From a virus, in IMG/VR virus record IMGVR_UViG_3300020156_000445, positions 1-53,512 of that record: a stretch of DNA of 53,512 nucleotides. The stretch is one strand, 5' to 3'. A program made the position numbers and the translations under genes. Position 1 is the first letter of the stretch. Each line of letters opens with the position of its first letter. This document shows positions 6,897 through 12,828 of this stretch, one piece after another. The notes beneath the pieces were generated by a model. The model did not search any database and had not been told where the DNA came from. It worked only from the letters and a program-made list of their open reading frames with translations.

Positions 6897-7025
6897 TCTT
6901 CCGAACACGCATTCTCCACCGTCCGTTTACGACCGCCGACACCGCTGAAAGGCGCGTAAAACCTCGCGTTTGCCATCCGTCACGTTCACGCTCGGTCGTT
7001 GACGTTCGCATGCAGCCGTGAAAAA

Positions 7026-7048
7026 GTGTGGGACGCAGTGTGGGACGC
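7026..7048 (+). repeat. Left integrase arm-type repeats
   Basis: Two copies of GTGTGGGACGC start at 7026 and 7038, a 12-bp period. A second pair with the same orientation and period lies at 52432 and 52444 near the right end. Such short direct repeats inside both ends are how P4-family integrases recognise attP arms. They also overlap the region just upstream of the integrase start and could serve autoregulation. Confidence 0.7.
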
Positions 7049-7079
7049 TGCGGTTCGACGGACGGCACGGGAGCGCGAC

Positions 7080-8294
7080 GTGGGCAGCCTGACAGCGGTG
7101 AAGGTGAAGGGCCTGAAAGAGCCGGGTCGGTACACGGATGGCGCCGGCCTGATGCTGGTCATCGGCAACGACGGCAGCCGGAAGTGGGTGCTGCGCGTCC
7201 AGGCCAACGGCAAGCGGCGCGACATCGGCCTGGGCTCTGCCAGCGACGTGAGCCTTGCCGACGCACGCGACGCCGCGACGGAGATGCGCAAGGCGATTCG
7301 GGAGGGCCGCGACCCGGTGGCCGAACAGCGGGCCGCCAAGGCTGCCGCAGAGGCGCCGGCGATTCCCACCTTCAAGAAGGCGGCGATCGAGGTGCACGCC
7401 GAACACGCGCCATCCTGGAAGAACCCGAAGCACGCGGCGCAGTGGCTGACCACCTTGGAGCGCTACGTCTTCCCGGCGTTCGGCGACCGGCTGGTGGACG
7501 AGATCACCGGGCCGATGATCCGCGACGTGTTGGCGCCGATCTGGCTGGAGGTCCCGGAGACGGCGCGGCGCATTCGGCAGAGGATCGGTACCGTCCTCGA
7601 CTGGGCGCACGCCAAGGGCTACAGGCCAGCGGAAGCGCCCATGCGGTCGGTGACCAAGGGCCTGCCGAAGCAGGCGAAGGGGCAAGAGCACTTCGCCGCT
7701 CTTCCCTGGGCTGACGTGCCCGACTTCATCGCCCGGCTGCGCGAGACCGATAAGACCGGCCCCATGGTCAAGCTGCTGTTCGAGTTCCTGATCATCACCG
7801 CGGTGCGCAGCGGCGAGGTGCGCGGTGCGCGGTGGAACGAGTTCGACACCGACGCGCGGCTTTGGACCATCCCCAAGGAGCGGATGAAGGCCAAGAAGGT
7901 GCACGTTGTGCCGCTGTCGGACAGGGCGATGCAGATCCTCGAAGAGGCCGGCAAGGCGCGCACCAGCGAATCGGACGATGCGTTCGTGTTCCAGGGCACG
8001 AAGCCCGGCCGGCCCTTGTCGGACATGACGCTGACGATGCCGCTTCGGCGCATGGGCATCGAGGCGACCGCACATGGCTTCCGGTCGTCGTTCCGGGATT
8101 GGGCCAGCGAGGCGACCAACTTCCCGAACGAGGTGGCAGAGGCTGCCCTTGCGCACGCGGTCAGGGACCGCACGGAAGCTGCCTACCGGCGCGGCGACCT
8201 GCTGGAGAAGCGGCGGAAGATGATGGACGCCTGGGCTGCCTTCTGCGAGGGGCGCCGGGGCAAGGTTGTGCCCATGGCCCGCAAGAGGGCCTGA
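7080..8294 (+). CDS. int: P4-type tyrosine integrase (DUF4102 N-terminus)
   Basis: This is a 404-residue integrase. The N-terminal DUF4102 arm-binding domain (about 1-80) begins GSLTAVKVKGLKEPGRYTDG and continues LRVQANGKRRDIGLGS. A core-binding domain follows at about 95-190. Catalytic residues are Arg in TAVRSGEVRGARW near 243, His-Gly-Phe-Arg in ATAHGFRSSFRDW near 331, His in ALAHAV near 358, and Tyr in EAAYRRG near 367. I chose the GTG at 7080 because GGGAG precedes it by about 8 nt and the family starts there. An upstream ATG at 6999 would place the arm repeats inside the gene. It drives integration at tRNA-Ser. Confidence 0.92.
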   Translation: MGSLTAVKVKGLKEPGRYTDGAGLMLVIGNDGSRKWVLRVQANGKRRDIGLGSASDVSLADARDAATEMRKAIREGRDPVAEQRAAKAAAEAPAIPTFKKAAIEVHAEHAPSWKNPKHAAQWLTTLERYVFPAFGDRLVDEITGPMIRDVLAPIWLEVPETARRIRQRIGTVLDWAHAKGYRPAEAPMRSVTKGLPKQAKGQEHFAALPWADVPDFIARLRETDKTGPMVKLLFEFLIITAVRSGEVRGARWNEFDTDARLWTIPKERMKAKKVHVVPLSDRAMQILEEAGKARTSESDDAFVFQGTKPGRPLSDMTLTMPLRRMGIEATAHGFRSSFRDWASEATNFPNEVAEAALAHAVRDRTEAAYRRGDLLEKRRKMMDAWAAFCEGRRGKVVPMARKRA

Positions 8295-8415
8295 GATCTT
8301 GCCCGGCGCTGCCGGGCTACGGAACCGGCGGGGATAGGATGGCCCCCGACAAGCGCGGCACTCCGCCCGCGCTTCCCCGCCGGCCTGCAAGCGGAAATGC
8401 CCTGCGGAGAGGGTT

Positions 8416-9213
8416 ATGTTCATCTCGTCATCCACAGCATTGGACATGTTTTCCAAACACGCGCCGCGTCCCTGGTGCAAAAAGCTGTTGGCGCACATGA
8501 TTTATCAAGAAGAAATTAATGTTTATTTCTCATCTGGTGTGATTGCGGTTCGCGCACGAGCAATTTACGAAGAGGATGTTCAAGAATATTCCGAAGTTAA
8601 TATTCAGCATCGCTATCAACCTGAGGCTTTAGACAAGAAAGTTAATGACGATGGAAGCATTACATTGCCTGCAAGCGCAACCTTGATCGGCACTTTTGAT
8701 GCCGTTGTTGATGAATGGAATGATGTATTCAAGAAAGCACCCGGCTGGCTATTTGCTTCCGATGTGCGCATAGATTGGGAGGGAGGAACTCTTTCTTCTG
8801 ATTTCATTCAGGTGTTTGATGAAGAGCTTTCGCAGTACGACAATAATAACGATGGAGAGGCTAAATATTGCCTCAAGGGGATGTTGTTTTCTCTTGACCA
8901 GATCGAGATGTATGCAATGGAATCAGCTTCTAGCGCTGACGTAGTGCACAAGCGGCAGCCGTCGCCTGCGCCAGTGGGGCGTCCTAAGATACATAATTGG
9001 GAGGGAGCGCTCATACATCTAGTTGCTTTGGCTGATGTGCATGGATTGCCTGATACTCAAGGCGCGAATGCTGCCATTTCTCGACATTTACTCCAGTGGT
9101 TTAGTGATGAGAACCTACCTGAGCCGACGCCATCGGATGGCAAGCGTTATGCCCGGCGCGTGCAACAGGCGATTCAGAAAGTGAAGCAGGCTGGGATGGC
9201 CGATAATAGCTGA
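8416..9213 (+). CDS. Hypothetical protein, AT-richer moron-like gene
   Basis: This 265-residue protein is unrecognised. It has no signal peptide and no clear motif, and is acidic overall, with a Lys/Arg/Gln-rich helical tail (RRVQQAIQKVKQAG). A PAPVGRPKIHNWEGA segment near 185 resembles short linker motifs before DNA-binding tails seen in phage regulators. The coding sequence from 8490 to 8930 is much richer in A and T than the rest of the phage, which suggests recent acquisition from another source. A purine-rich GGAGAGG precedes the ATG. The position next to the integrase is typical for superinfection or defence genes, but that is only context. Confidence 0.6.
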   Translation: MFISSSTALDMFSKHAPRPWCKKLLAHMIYQEEINVYFSSGVIAVRARAIYEEDVQEYSEVNIQHRYQPEALDKKVNDDGSITLPASATLIGTFDAVVDEWNDVFKKAPGWLFASDVRIDWEGGTLSSDFIQVFDEELSQYDNNNDGEAKYCLKGMLFSLDQIEMYAMESASSADVVHKRQPSPAPVGRPKIHNWEGALIHLVALADVHGLPDTQGANAAISRHLLQWFSDENLPEPTPSDGKRYARRVQQAIQKVKQAGMADNS

Positions 9214-9254
9214 AAATAGCCGGAAACAGATTATCGGCCATTTCCGGCCATTTC
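9203..9254. promoter_or_regulatory. Inverted arrays of a 10-bp unit upstream of the excisionase
   Basis: On the plus strand, CGGCCATTTC occurs twice in tandem (9235-9254) and is followed by CGGCC. On the minus strand, two related decamers, CGGCTATTTT and CAGCTATTAT, occupy 9222-9203. The arrays therefore face each other across 12 bp, with the unit length equal to one helical turn. This arrangement suits cooperative binding of a small HTH protein such as the excisionase encoded just downstream. Confidence 0.5.
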
Positions 9255-9288
9255 CGGCCGACTGCCTCGTTCGTTCGTGTCTAGCTTT

Positions 9289-9330
9289 CCCCGTAAGCCG
9301 CTGATTGGCAGCGGCCGTAGCCATACGGGG
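9289..9330 (+). promoter_or_regulatory. Hairpin covering the excisionase ribosome-binding site
   Basis: CCCCGTA (9289-9295) pairs with TACGGGG (9324-9330), and inside it GCCGCTG (9297-9303) pairs with CAGCGGC (9309-9315). The GGGG of the outer arm is the only Shine-Dalgarno-like sequence before the ATG at 9338. If this folds in the mRNA, it would hold excisionase translation low until opened. Confidence 0.4.
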
Positions 9331-9337
9331 AACGCTG

Positions 9338-9508
9338 ATGGACAAGGTTTGTGTCTCGGTTGAAGACGCGCGGAAGGCGCTGAGCATCGGGCGCACCTCG
9401 ATCTACGAGCTGATCAACGCCGGCCGGCTGAAGACCGTGAAGATCGGCCGCCGGACGCTGATCACGACGGCCAGCATTCGGGCGATCACCGGCGAAGGGG
9501 GGGCCTAA
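9338..9508 (+). CDS. xis: Excisionase-like helix-turn-helix protein
   Basis: This 56-residue protein is made almost entirely of a MerR/AlpA-type winged HTH (HTH_17). VSVEDARKALSIGRTSIYEL forms the two-helix unit, followed by the wing AGRLKTVKIGRRTLIT and a short tail. Proteins of this size and fold next to phage integrases are recombination directionality factors that bend DNA for excision, and some also repress. The ATG at 9338 is chosen because the domain begins there. Inverted decamer repeats lie 84-135 bp upstream. The gene begins the rightward replication operon. Confidence 0.75.
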   Translation: MDKVCVSVEDARKALSIGRTSIYELINAGRLKTVKIGRRTLITTASIRAITGEGGA

Positions 9509-9511
9509 ACC

Positions 9512-9898
9512 ATGGCCCCCCGTCGCTCCACCAAGGCCGCCAAGCCCACCATCACCAAGCTGAACGAGCACGCCATCGGCCGAGCCGAGTGGATGCTCCT
9601 GCCGATCGCCATCGCCATCGGTCCGGAGAACGAGAGGACGCCTGCCGGCATGATGGCGGAGTGCCAGGGCCACTTCGCCGTGCACGCCACCTTCTACGGC
9701 GCCGACGAACTGGTGCTCACCCACCTGCCCAGCGGGCTGGTGGTGCGCCGGCATCAGCGGGCGCAGCCCCTCAAGGATCTGGCCGAAGCGATCGAGCCGC
9801 TGCACGACTGGTCGTCATCGGAGTACGACGTCGCGCCCGCCGTGACGAAGGCGATACACGCCTTTGACAAGGCGCAGCTCAACCGCGCGGCCGCGTGA
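9512..9898 (+). CDS. Hypothetical phage protein
   Basis: This 128-residue protein starts 3 nt after the excisionase stop, so the two are probably translated together. The N-terminus is basic (APRRSTKAAKPT), the middle contains a hydrophobic beta-rich stretch (HFAVHATFYGADELVLTHLP) and the C-terminus is helical. It has no recognised family and no signal peptide. From the neighbours it belongs to the early operon that leads into replication. Confidence 0.65.
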   Translation: MAPRRSTKAAKPTITKLNEHAIGRAEWMLLPIAIAIGPENERTPAGMMAECQGHFAVHATFYGADELVLTHLPSGLVVRRHQRAQPLKDLAEAIEPLHDWSSSEYDVAPAVTKAIHAFDKAQLNRAAA

Positions 9899-9905
9899 GG
9901 TCGCC

Positions 9906-10571
9906 ATGTCCACCATCACCAACCTCGGCGGCGAGCGCCTGCGCCGGAAGGTGGCCGCTCTGCCGCGGCGCAGTCCCGCCGACTACGCCACCGGCATCGC
10001 GCAGGATCTCAACCGTCTCGTCCAGGATGGCGGCGGCGATGGCGACCAGTTGGCCGCGTTGGCGGAGCGCGCGCTGCGGCTGGCGGCCCTTCTACGGGGG
10101 CAGCTGGACGCCGAACACGAACCAGCGAGCGCCAACGCCGGCCTGACGACCGAGCGCGAGCCACTTTCAGCCGCTGAGGCACTGGCCGCCGCTGAGGTGC
10201 ATGCGGCCGCGTTCTGGCGGTGCCGGGCGACGGGCGTCGACTGCCGGCGGGTGCAGCACCCGGCGCTGGCCGTGGTGGCGGTGAACGACCCCGCGCCGGG
10301 GCAGTCAACCTGTCAGTTCCAGATGTACGCCAACCCGGATCTCGCTGACGCGGCGTCGTTCTGCATCATCGAGGCGCCCCACGGCGTCGGCGCGGCGTAC
10401 CTGCTCGATACAGCGCTCCACCTGGGCGAGAAGTCGTGGGTCGATCGCGCCGCGCTTCTGGAGGCGGTGGACATGATCGCGTGGGAGCGCGGCGACAGGA
10501 CCTGGGCCGGCGCTCATGGCATGGGGCCTTTTGCCCGCCTCGGCGCGCCGGTCGTGCATCGGAGGTCGTAG
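9906..10571 (+). CDS. Hypothetical early phage protein
   Basis: This 221-residue protein begins at ATG 9906, 7 nt after the preceding stop. The N-terminal 90 residues are helical and charged. A central segment holds two cysteines in FWRCRATGVDCRRVQHP, and the C-terminus has a tryptophan-containing helix. I recognise no domain. The gene sits 5 nt upstream of the replication initiator and was probably co-transcribed with it. A helper role in replication is possible but not shown. Confidence 0.6.
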   Translation: MSTITNLGGERLRRKVAALPRRSPADYATGIAQDLNRLVQDGGGDGDQLAALAERALRLAALLRGQLDAEHEPASANAGLTTEREPLSAAEALAAAEVHAAAFWRCRATGVDCRRVQHPALAVVAVNDPAPGQSTCQFQMYANPDLADAASFCIIEAPHGVGAAYLLDTALHLGEKSWVDRAALLEAVDMIAWERGDRTWAGAHGMGPFARLGAPVVHRRS

Positions 10572-10576
10572 CAGCC

Positions 10577-11464
10577 ATGGCGCGAATTCGCTCGATCAAG
10601 CCAGAGTTTTTCCGGCATCGCAGGTTGTACCTGCTGGAGCGCGAGGCGGGCCTGCCGGTGCGGGTGGCCTTCGCCGGCCTGTGGACGGTGGCCGATCGGG
10701 AAGGCCGGTTCCGGTGGGAACCGGATGAACTGAAACTCGACTGCCTCCCCTATGACGATGTCGACTTTTCACGCGTGCTCGACGCGTTGGCCACGCGTGG
10801 CTTTGTCGTGCGTTACGCGTCACACGGCCGCGAATACGGCGTCATTCCGGGTTTCGTGCGGCACCAGATCATCAACAACCGCGAAACCGCCTCCACGCTT
10901 CCGCCTCCTCCGGAAGATATTGAAAACGCAGAAGAATTGACGCGTGCCTCACGCGTCATTGACGCGTGCCCCACGCCTCTTGTGCAAGGCCAAGGGGAAG
11001 GGAGTGGGAAGGGAGGGGAAGGGAGGGGAAGGGAAAGGGAATCCCCCCTGACGGGGGGAGCAAACGCAGGCGGTCCTGGCACTGAATCCCCTTCGCTTAT
11101 TCCAGACGCTCCGGCCATGCCCAAGCCGATGCGGGGTGCCGAGGTCAAGTTGCTGGAGGACGCCCGCGTGATCTGGAACGACGTGTGCGCGCCTGCCGGG
11201 CTGGCCGCCGTCCAGAAGCTGAGCGACACCCGCAAGAGCCGCCTTAAATCGCGCCTGAAGGAAATGGGGAATAGTCTGGACAGCTGGCGCGCGTATTGCG
11301 AACGCATCACCCGGTCATCGAACCTGCGTGGGGAAAAAAGCCGCAACGGATGGAAGGCTGATTTCGACTACTGCATCCGCGAAGACATCGCCATTCGCAT
11401 CATTGAGGGCCAATTCGACGACAAATCGCCTGCCGCTGCCAAACCGGCGCGCGCGTTCACTTAG
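10577..11464 (+). CDS. Phage replication initiator-like protein (lambda O-type position)
   Basis: This 295-residue protein has an N-terminal winged-helix domain (about 1-110) starting ARIRSIKPEFFRHRRLYLLE and including FAGLWTVADREGRFRW, a form common in phage replication proteins. A low-complexity Gly/Glu/Arg/Ser linker (about 135-180) leads to a C-terminal helical domain with LKSRLKEMGNSLDSWRAYCE, ending in a patch suited to contact a helicase. It lies directly upstream of a DnaB-type helicase, the same order as lambda O-P or other initiator-helicase pairs. Its own coding DNA carries eight 11-bp-phased ACGCGT or ACGCCT repeats and a long purine tract, so the gene probably contains the phage origin. 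Confidence 0.75.
   Translation: MARIRSIKPEFFRHRRLYLLEREAGLPVRVAFAGLWTVADREGRFRWEPDELKLDCLPYDDVDFSRVLDALATRGFVVRYASHGREYGVIPGFVRHQIINNRETASTLPPPPEDIENAEELTRASRVIDACPTPLVQGQGEGSGKGGEGRGRERESPLTGGANAGGPGTESPSLIPDAPAMPKPMRGAEVKLLEDARVIWNDVCAPAGLAAVQKLSDTRKSRLKSRLKEMGNSLDSWRAYCERITRSSNLRGEKSRNGWKADFDYCIREDIAIRIIEGQFDDKSPAAAKPARAFT
10771..10978. repeat. Phased ACGCGT iterons: candidate phage replication origin
   Basis: ACGCGT occurs at 10771, 10782, 10793 and 10815, and again at 10940, 10951 and 10962, with ACGCCT at 10973. Within each group the spacing is exactly 11 bp or 22 bp, one or two helical turns. Phage initiators commonly bind iterons located inside their own gene, as lambda O does. The two groups are separated by 120 bp. 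Confidence 0.65.
10992..11041 (+). other. 50-bp polypurine tract next to the iterons
   Basis: This run of A and G is interrupted by a single T at 11005. It contains at least eight runs of three or more G. It encodes the low-complexity Gly/Glu/Arg linker of the initiator. Such a tract can form triplex or G-quadruplex DNA and would not melt easily, so it is more likely a spacer or structural element than the unwinding region. Confidence 0.5.
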
Positions 11465-11472
11465 GATCAACG

Positions 11473-12828
11473 ATGCAGCCCACCAACGATACATCGCTGA
11501 AGCTGTCGGTGACGCTCCCCGTCAACCCCGACATCGAAGACGCCCTCATAGGGTCGGTGCTGATGGCGCCGAAGCTCTGGCCGAAAGTCGCGCACGTGCG
11601 GCCGTCGGACTTCCACAGTCCGGCGCACGCTTCGGTGTGGGAGGTGATGGCCGAACTGGCGAGCGGAGGAAGCGCTCCCGACCTGATCACCGTCACGGCT
11701 CGAATCACGGCCGGGCTCGATCACGCATCGGACGAAGCCATGGCGTGGCGGAAGCACCTGCACGAGCTGACGCTCAGCGGCGGATACATCGCCCGGGAAG
11801 CCCAGAACTATGCCGCGATCGTCCGTGACTACTCCGAGCGCCGGCGGCTGATCTGGGCGATGCAGGATGGCATTCACGCGGCGGCCGACACCGCCGCTGC
11901 TGATACGGCGGCGCAGGTCGCCGGCGGCGTCATGGCGCGGATCACCGTCGACAGTCGCGTGTCCGACGACATCGAGGACGCCTACGACATCGCCGGCCGG
12001 GTGGTCGACGAACTGGACCGACCCATCGACGTGGTGAGCACCGGCATGCCCCGCCTGGACGCCGCGATGGGCGGCGGCATCCGCCGGGGGACGTTCATCG
12101 GCATCGGCGGCGACCAGAAGGCCGGCAAGTCCACCCTGCTCGGCTCCATCGCCTACAACCTGACCGTCGGCGCGGAAGAGCGCGGCGTAGAGGTCGAGCC
12201 GCTGGTCTACCTGTGCCTGGAGATGAAGCCGGAGACCCAGCTGCAGCGCCTCATGGGCCGCTACATGGGCATGAACTCGGAAGCCTTCACCGACCCGGTG
12301 ACGCGCGCCCAGCCGTGGTTCAAGCGCAAAGCCCAGGAGGCCCAGGAGGCGCTGCGCGGCAAGGGGCTGTTCTTCGCGGCCCGCCCCCGGATGACGCTGG
12401 ACGACCTGAAGGGGACCTTGGCGCGGATCGGGCTGTCGAAGAAGTTCCGGGGCGCGATGGTCGACTACGTGCAGTTGGTGGGCGGCAAGCGCAGCAAGAC
12501 ATCGATGGCCGAACACCTGGACGATGTGAACCAGACCATCGCCGAGACCTGCGTGAACACTGGGCTTTGGGTCATGGCCGCTGCCCAGCTCAACAGCGAG
12601 GGCAAGGTGCGCGGCGGCAGTGGCTTGAACGCAGCGTGCGACATCGCCTTTGCGATCCGGAAGCACCAGGAAGTCTATGGGCAGGACCACGAAGCCCACC
12701 TGGAGAACCTGGCTGCCCGCTACACGCGGCAGCTGAACGTCGGATCCGAGAACTGCGCGGCCTACCGGCTGCGGTCGGATCGAGGTCCCTTCTACGACGA
12801 ATTGGAACTGCCGCCGCGCATCGACTGA
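11473..12828 (+). CDS. Replicative DNA helicase, DnaB family
   Basis: This 451-residue protein has the N-terminal DnaB domain at about 15-115 (EDALIGSVLMAPKLWPKV) and a RecA-like ATPase domain from about 185. Walker A is GGDQKAGKST near 212. The H1a-like LCLEMKPETQLQRLM follows, then Walker B in FRGAMVDYVQLV near 330, and the H4 region near AAAQLNSEGKVRGGSGL. It unwinds DNA at the fork, loaded by the upstream initiator. It starts 8 nt after the initiator stop. The length matches host DnaB, and phage-encoded copies of this kind make replication independent of host DnaB recruitment. Confidence 0.9.
   Translation: MQPTNDTSLKLSVTLPVNPDIEDALIGSVLMAPKLWPKVAHVRPSDFHSPAHASVWEVMAELASGGSAPDLITVTARITAGLDHASDEAMAWRKHLHELTLSGGYIAREAQNYAAIVRDYSERRRLIWAMQDGIHAAADTAAADTAAQVAGGVMARITVDSRVSDDIEDAYDIAGRVVDELDRPIDVVSTGMPRLDAAMGGGIRRGTFIGIGGDQKAGKSTLLGSIAYNLTVGAEERGVEVEPLVYLCLEMKPETQLQRLMGRYMGMNSEAFTDPVTRAQPWFKRKAQEAQEALRGKGLFFAARPRMTLDDLKGTLARIGLSKKFRGAMVDYVQLVGGKRSKTSMAEHLDDVNQTIAETCVNTGLWVMAAAQLNSEGKVRGGSGLNAACDIAFAIRKHQEVYGQDHEAHLENLAARYTRQLNVGSENCAAYRLRSDRGPFYDELELPPRID

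Follow-up and report, generated by a model that had tools for sequence, protein, structure and literature searches.

The placement of a replication origin inside the gene for its own initiator has been established experimentally for the O protein of phage lambda (PMC7466680). The lambda origin lies in the middle of the O gene, between the parts that encode the DNA-binding and the helicase-recruiting functions, and consists of iterons in tandem with a low-complexity tract after them; the helicase-loading function is encoded next. An intragenic origin has also been established by experiment for the Rep protein of pSK41, of the RepA_N type (PF06970), in which a winged-helix N-terminal domain binds Rep boxes in the middle of its own gene, the linker is dispensable as protein, and the C-terminal domain recruits replication proteins (PMC5703833). 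In pPR9, the N-terminal domain and the origin have been swapped as a unit (PMC5703833). The N-terminal domain and origin of RepA from the PLE satellites likewise co-vary and swap as modules, and the origin is attacked by ICP1 Odn, a nuclease that carries an initiator-like domain (PMC7145576, PMC8263062). For other RepA proteins, a study of mycobacteriophages goes no further than to suggest repA as a possible place for the origin, as in lambda O (PMC7157519).

The locus described here lies in a window of 53,512 nt, the whole stretch of DNA that was analysed, which comprises positions 1 to 53,512 of the IMG/VR virus record IMGVR_UViG_3300020156_000445. The window also encodes a lambda-type terminase, a portal protein, a contractile tail sheath and an integrase, and from these genes the virus looks like a temperate tailed phage. 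Near the integrase gene are two sizeable ORFs, at 6927-8498 on the minus strand and at 8416-9213 on the plus strand, for which no match above threshold was found in Pfam or PHROGs. The initiator is encoded on the plus strand at 10577-11464 by an ORF of 295 aa, and the next gene 3' of it, at 11473-12828 on the same strand, is assigned by profile matches to a DnaB-type replicative helicase. The N-terminal domain matches PHROGs 16167, 2149, 12556 and 1408, which are phage replication initiation proteins, with E values from 6e-39 to 1e-19. The protein is identified as an initiator because of this family match and because the helicase gene lies directly downstream.

An AlphaFold2 model, read together with the PHROG matches, divides the initiator into a DNA-binding domain (aa 1-112), a disordered linker (aa 113-186) and a C-terminal domain (aa 187-288). 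The first is modeled with confidence as a winged helix and the last as a helical domain, given that pLDDT is about 87-98 in residues 11-110 and 191-280; it falls below about 50 across most of residues 121-170. Searches of Pfam and NCBIfam gave no family match, no solved structure was found by sequence, and a Foldseek search with the model returned no match with E < 0.1.

Two arrays of the word ACGCGT are found within the initiator gene. Group 1 (10771-10820, unstranded) has the word at 10771, 10782, 10793 and 10815, in steps of 11, 11 and 22 bp. Group 2 (10940-10978, also unstranded) has it at 10940, 10951 and 10962, followed by ACGCCT at 10973, such that every step is 11 bp. The coordinates that the first-pass annotation gave for the seven ACGCGT sites and the one ACGCCT site proved exact, as did their spacings. 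The distance from group 1 to group 2 does not keep the 11-bp phasing. ACGCGT occurs 20 times in the window, which is no more than expected by chance, and the 13 copies outside the arrays are single and scattered; the signal is therefore in the arrangement of the sites and not in their count. A count of phased pairs that accepts any non-purine hexamer gives 8 at a period of 11, and no other period between 6 and 21 scores more than 1. The GC skew of the window does not switch at the initiator locus and is uninformative as an origin marker, and no known RNA element was found.

A protein-level repeat, or a biased low-complexity linker, could in principle yield a DNA pattern of this kind, and the linker is indeed disordered and of low complexity. 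A period of 11 is, however, not a multiple of 3, and the sites in the window occupy all three reading frames. When the initiator gene was recoded synonymously with the protein held fixed, none of 20,000 recodings reached the observed 8 phased pairs, and the maximum was 3. Protein repeat or codon bias as the cause is refuted by these protein-preserving nulls, in agreement with what had been argued earlier from the sequence, and the chance that it accounts for the arrays is close to negligible.

Homologues of the initiator gene were gathered from IMG/VR, GTDB genomes and annotated phages, and were dereplicated to 299 genes in five subfamilies. In the linker DNA before the purine tract described below, self-similarity at a lag of 11 bp exceeds the synonymous null in each subfamily, with Stouffer z values of 24.6, 17.7, 20.0, 8.7 and 10.3, and the next large peak is at a lag of 22. 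The excess at lag 11 is absent from the control DNA, with z of 1.9 for the C-terminal DNA and -1.2 for the downstream ORF. Of the 284 intervals between neighboring sites in ACGCG-class genes, 263 measure exactly 11 bp, and the sites again fall in all three frames. The phasing is under selection at the DNA level. Conservation of the phasing among homologues, which the first-pass annotation had named as a check on its proposal, is thus borne out in every subfamily tested, beyond what the protein requires, and both groups are conserved in place as well.

The step is constant, and the word is not. ACGCGT, TCGCGA, TCGACGA, CTCAC, TCCGGA, GGGAAGCA, AAGCACC, CCAAGG and AACGG serve as iterons in different lineages, in classes that are hand-made patterns with a few genes misfiled (L142 and L154 under AAGCACC, for example). 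Lineages that switch word keep the 11-bp step and, usually, the GGAA-rich tract. A small GCACGTGC class (L193, L216, L019, L021 and similar genes) has a step of 10 bp rather than 11 bp.

Group 2 is followed on the plus strand, at 10992-11041, by the polypurine tract that had been reported to follow the iterons. The tract is GGAA-rich, with 49 purines in 50 nt and a lone T at 11005, and is a candidate element for unwinding or helicase loading. Its 36-nt purine run is the longest run of purines or pyrimidines in the window, the runner-up being 17. Dense GGAA after the iterons is found in 125 of 133, 30 of 30, 16 of 23 and 18 of 41 genes in four subfamilies. In the fifth (HQxPH), the mirror form TTCC mostly takes the place of GGAA, with a dense cluster in 29 of 72 genes; in members such as L313, L314 and L336 the tract is made of TGATTCC repeats (GGAATCA on the other strand), such that with respect to the gene the G-rich strand is the opposite one. 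Glycine codons in the tract are GGG or GGA (GGR) 732 times versus GGC or GGT (GGY) only 4 times, whereas elsewhere GGC and GGT are in the majority. The purine codons in the tract are forced.

Directly 3' of the tract is the inverted repeat TCCCCCC-tgac-GGGGGGA (11042-11059, unstranded). Inverted repeats with arms of at least 7 bp were found behind the tract in 36 of 124 genes of subfamily A, versus 1 of 124 for a downstream stretch taken as control, and the arm sequences differ among homologues. A G-quadruplex was considered as the conserved feature of the tract and was rejected, given that a plus-strand motif, defined as four runs of at least 3 G within short reach, is present in only 45, 27, 0, 35 and 41% of the genes in the five subfamilies.

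The claim of the first-pass annotation that an origin lies inside the initiator gene is supported by the initiator family, the helicase context and the phasing across subfamilies, as a strong inference from architecture. We judge, with a probability of about 0.86, that 10771-11059 is the replication origin of the phage, embedded in the gene for its own initiator. Weighing against this are the GC skew, which has no switch at the locus, and the G-rich make-up of the tract, which makes melting harder to account for than in lambda, where the tract is A+T-rich. The window gene has an iteron array in linker-coding DNA, between the DNA-binding and C-terminal domains, which is the layout of an intragenic origin. 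By analogy with the systems above, it is best read as a lambda-O/RepA_N-like intragenic origin with one-turn iterons.

The mid-gene position, the order of iterons and tract, and the helicase-loading function encoded next are all shared with lambda. The lambda iterons are 18-19 bp long and repeat in steps of 20-24 bp, whereas the sites here are 6 bp long in steps of 11 bp, and the lambda tract is A+T-rich, whereas the tract here is a G-rich, GGGAA-rich purine tract. A second array in recognition-helix DNA is found here, unlike in lambda O. The window initiator gave no match to the PHROG of lambda O (277), to which it connects only indirectly, by way of PHROGs 5810 and 345. The RepA_N system resembles this locus, as modeled, in its winged-helix N-terminal domain, its boxes in mid-gene, its linker and recruiting C-terminal domain, and its exchange of N-terminal domain and origin as a unit. 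The pSK41 boxes repeat at 23 bp, however, rather than at 11 bp, and the GGAA tract is not seen in pSK41. No kinship to RepA_N was found by sequence, with no Pfam match and an hhalign probability of 0.1. Comparison of the modeled fold to the RepA_N-type structures 4pql, 4pt7 and 5kbj gave VIA-align Z scores of 5.7-6.4, amid many generic winged helices. The PLE system is alike in its modularity, but it belongs to a different family, and its iterons are intergenic and about 30 bp long, whereas the 6-bp sites here are intragenic. On these comparisons the locus belongs to neither the lambda O nor the RepA_N group, although it would work in a similar way. No description of origins for this initiator family was found in the open-access literature.

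Sites for a DNA-binding protein within its own gene could also be autoregulatory, in which case the arrays would be an operator through which the initiator represses or blocks its own transcription, with the real origin elsewhere. Hairpin-like terminator patterns do overlap the arrays on the minus strand. A sigma-70 scan, which addresses one promoter type, found no promoter-like site at 8400-12000, however, and both arrays are deep within the reading frame. An operator would also leave the conserved GGAA tract and the hairpin beside group 2 unexplained, and lambda O and pSK41 Rep, with the same layout, are known origins. An operator is considered unlikely.

For an intragenic origin, binding, unwinding, helicase loading and replication are steps that we infer. 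The N-terminal winged-helix domain would bind the ACGCGT sites, and with the sites in steps of 11 bp the protomers would lie on one face of the helix and form a compact nucleoprotein array. Strain from this array would open the adjoining GGAA purine tract. Transcription of the gene would help in this, and single-strand binding on the purine-rich strand might do so too. The C-terminal domain would then recruit the phage DnaB helicase, the product of the neighboring gene, with the disordered linker, itself encoded by the origin DNA, as a tether.

Most of group 1 is held in the DNA for the predicted recognition helix (aa 64-73; 10766-10795 on the plus strand, as placed from the secondary structure of the model and the sequence). 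The group overlaps the codons of this helix and of the first wing strand; group 2, the tract and the hairpin are within linker codons. Of 111 ACGCG-class genes, 76 have a site at each of the positions -91, -80 and -69 relative to the HQ codon, where synonymous recoding leads to an expectation of 0.005. The lineage's own word is present in the group 1 DNA of 87 of 109 ACGCGT genes, of 13 of 13 TCGCGA genes, where the copies are phased, and of 6 of 11 TCGACGA genes, and several GGGAAGCA-class genes (L142, L144, L146, L152 and L154) have reverse-complement words of the TGCTTCC type in the helix DNA. Group 1 therefore bears a word matched to the lineage in four word classes, and because the TCGCGA, TCGACGA and GGGAAGCA classes hold their own words in the corresponding DNA, a chance product of a single protein sequence is not the explanation. 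About one fifth of the ACGCG-class genes lack group 1, and it was undetected in most GGGAAGCA-class and HQxPH-type genes; from its absence in many genes it is taken to be non-essential and accessory. As a second array of the same sites, it may serve for extra binding, bridging or titration.

In plasmid biology, iterons often serve both in replication and in pairing or titration. Group 1 stands apart from the tract and could titrate or bridge, as would be expected if the arrays were a partition, incompatibility or copy-control site that works by pairing or titration and is not a start site. Group 2 nevertheless adjoins the conserved GGAA tract and hairpin, and the presence of an integrase gene in the window makes a plasmid-like need for partition unlikely. 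A site of this kind, in place of an origin, is very improbable.

The motif HQIINNRE (aa 96-103; codons at 10862-10885, plus strand) closely follows the wing in the DNA-binding domain, and in a ranking by mutual information it best predicts the iteron word. Over 160 classified genes, the columns most informative on the word are residues 100, 101 and 98 in the numbering of the window protein. Every ACGCGT-class gene (106 of 106) has Asn 100, those of a Vibrio-type clade included. In a tree from which the motif was left out, strongly supported branches separate this clade from that of the window, so that ACGCGT occurs with Asn 100 in two distinct clades. These patterns are suggestive of an HQxxNN motif that reads the word and changes together with it, a link that is confounded with ancestry, as well-supported branches supply just 2 independent pairs, which do not suffice for a test.

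Several of the words are palindromic hexamers (ACGCGT, TCGCGA and TCCGGA), which would suit sites for another phage or host protein, whether for a terminase at a packaging site, a nucleoid protein or a modification enzyme. Many words are, however, non-palindromic (GGGAAGCA and AAGCACC among them), the word appears to change with the initiator's own recognition motif, and several kb separate the arrays from the gene for the large terminase. We regard the assignment of these sites to another protein as extremely improbable.

The gene L433 (about 2200-2500) has the motif HQRVSHP and TCCGGA in its linker, yet TCGCGA in its recognition-helix DNA, and is possibly an evolutionary intermediate in which a word switch is midway. 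More tentatively, and at somewhat less than even odds, the locus can be viewed as a dual-coding system, in which the recognition-helix DNA is a site array for the same initiator, such that the residues that read the site and the site itself share bases. New specificities would come from a change in HQxxNN and the linker array, and the helix array would follow later, with L433 as an intermediate. If this is true, it would give a readable amino-acid-to-word code, in which, for example, D, N or S at residue 100 goes with TCGCGA, ACGCGT/CTCAC or TCCGGA, respectively.

Phage origins are rarely annotated, and the signature of 11-bp-stepped words after an HQ motif, followed by a GGAA tract, should closely predict an origin. 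The signature applies to hundreds of phages and prophages from several phyla and suggests a pairing of initiator to word. Cultured relatives that show it include Mycobacterium smegmatis phage Redi, of the TCGCGA class, and Vibrio phage 1.176.O, of the ACGCGT class. Such natural initiator-site pairs bear on how replication specificity evolves when the site that an initiator has to match lies within the gene that encodes it, and they may be a route to compatible phage-derived replicons. They also make testable the old question of whether one-turn phasing lets a winged-helix array strain and open DNA.

The C-terminus is modular. When homologues with 65-75% identity in the N-terminal domain were compared in pairs, a shared C-terminal domain could be detected in only 82 of 2410 pairs. 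As judged from these comparisons, the DNA-binding domain and the candidate origin travel as one cassette, with C-terminal domains swapped freely behind the tract. An HNH nuclease domain is found in the linker, after the HQ motif, in L210, L217, L228, L257, L028, L148, L178 and L349, as confirmed by Pfam for L028 and L148 and called by sequence pattern for the others. Because HNH nucleases sit inside them, the linkers must tolerate large insertions. In L210 and L217 the HNH domain separates the purine tract from iteron-like DNA, which looks like the invasion of the origin itself by a homing-type nuclease.

The nuclease-bearing members of the family offer a parallel to ICP1 Odn. The p19 protein of Myxococcus phage Mx8 (L311:2471-3652), annotated as a replication initiation protein, has the same DNA-binding domain joined to a T5orf172/MUG113 nuclease-type domain. 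Given that its layout is as in Odn, it is a candidate origin-targeting nuclease. In three cultured phages, a free-standing HNH endonuclease gene is directly 5' of the initiator gene (L313:56-802, L314:1689-2489 and L315:1762-2508), and these upstream genes may be related to the nucleases found in the linkers.
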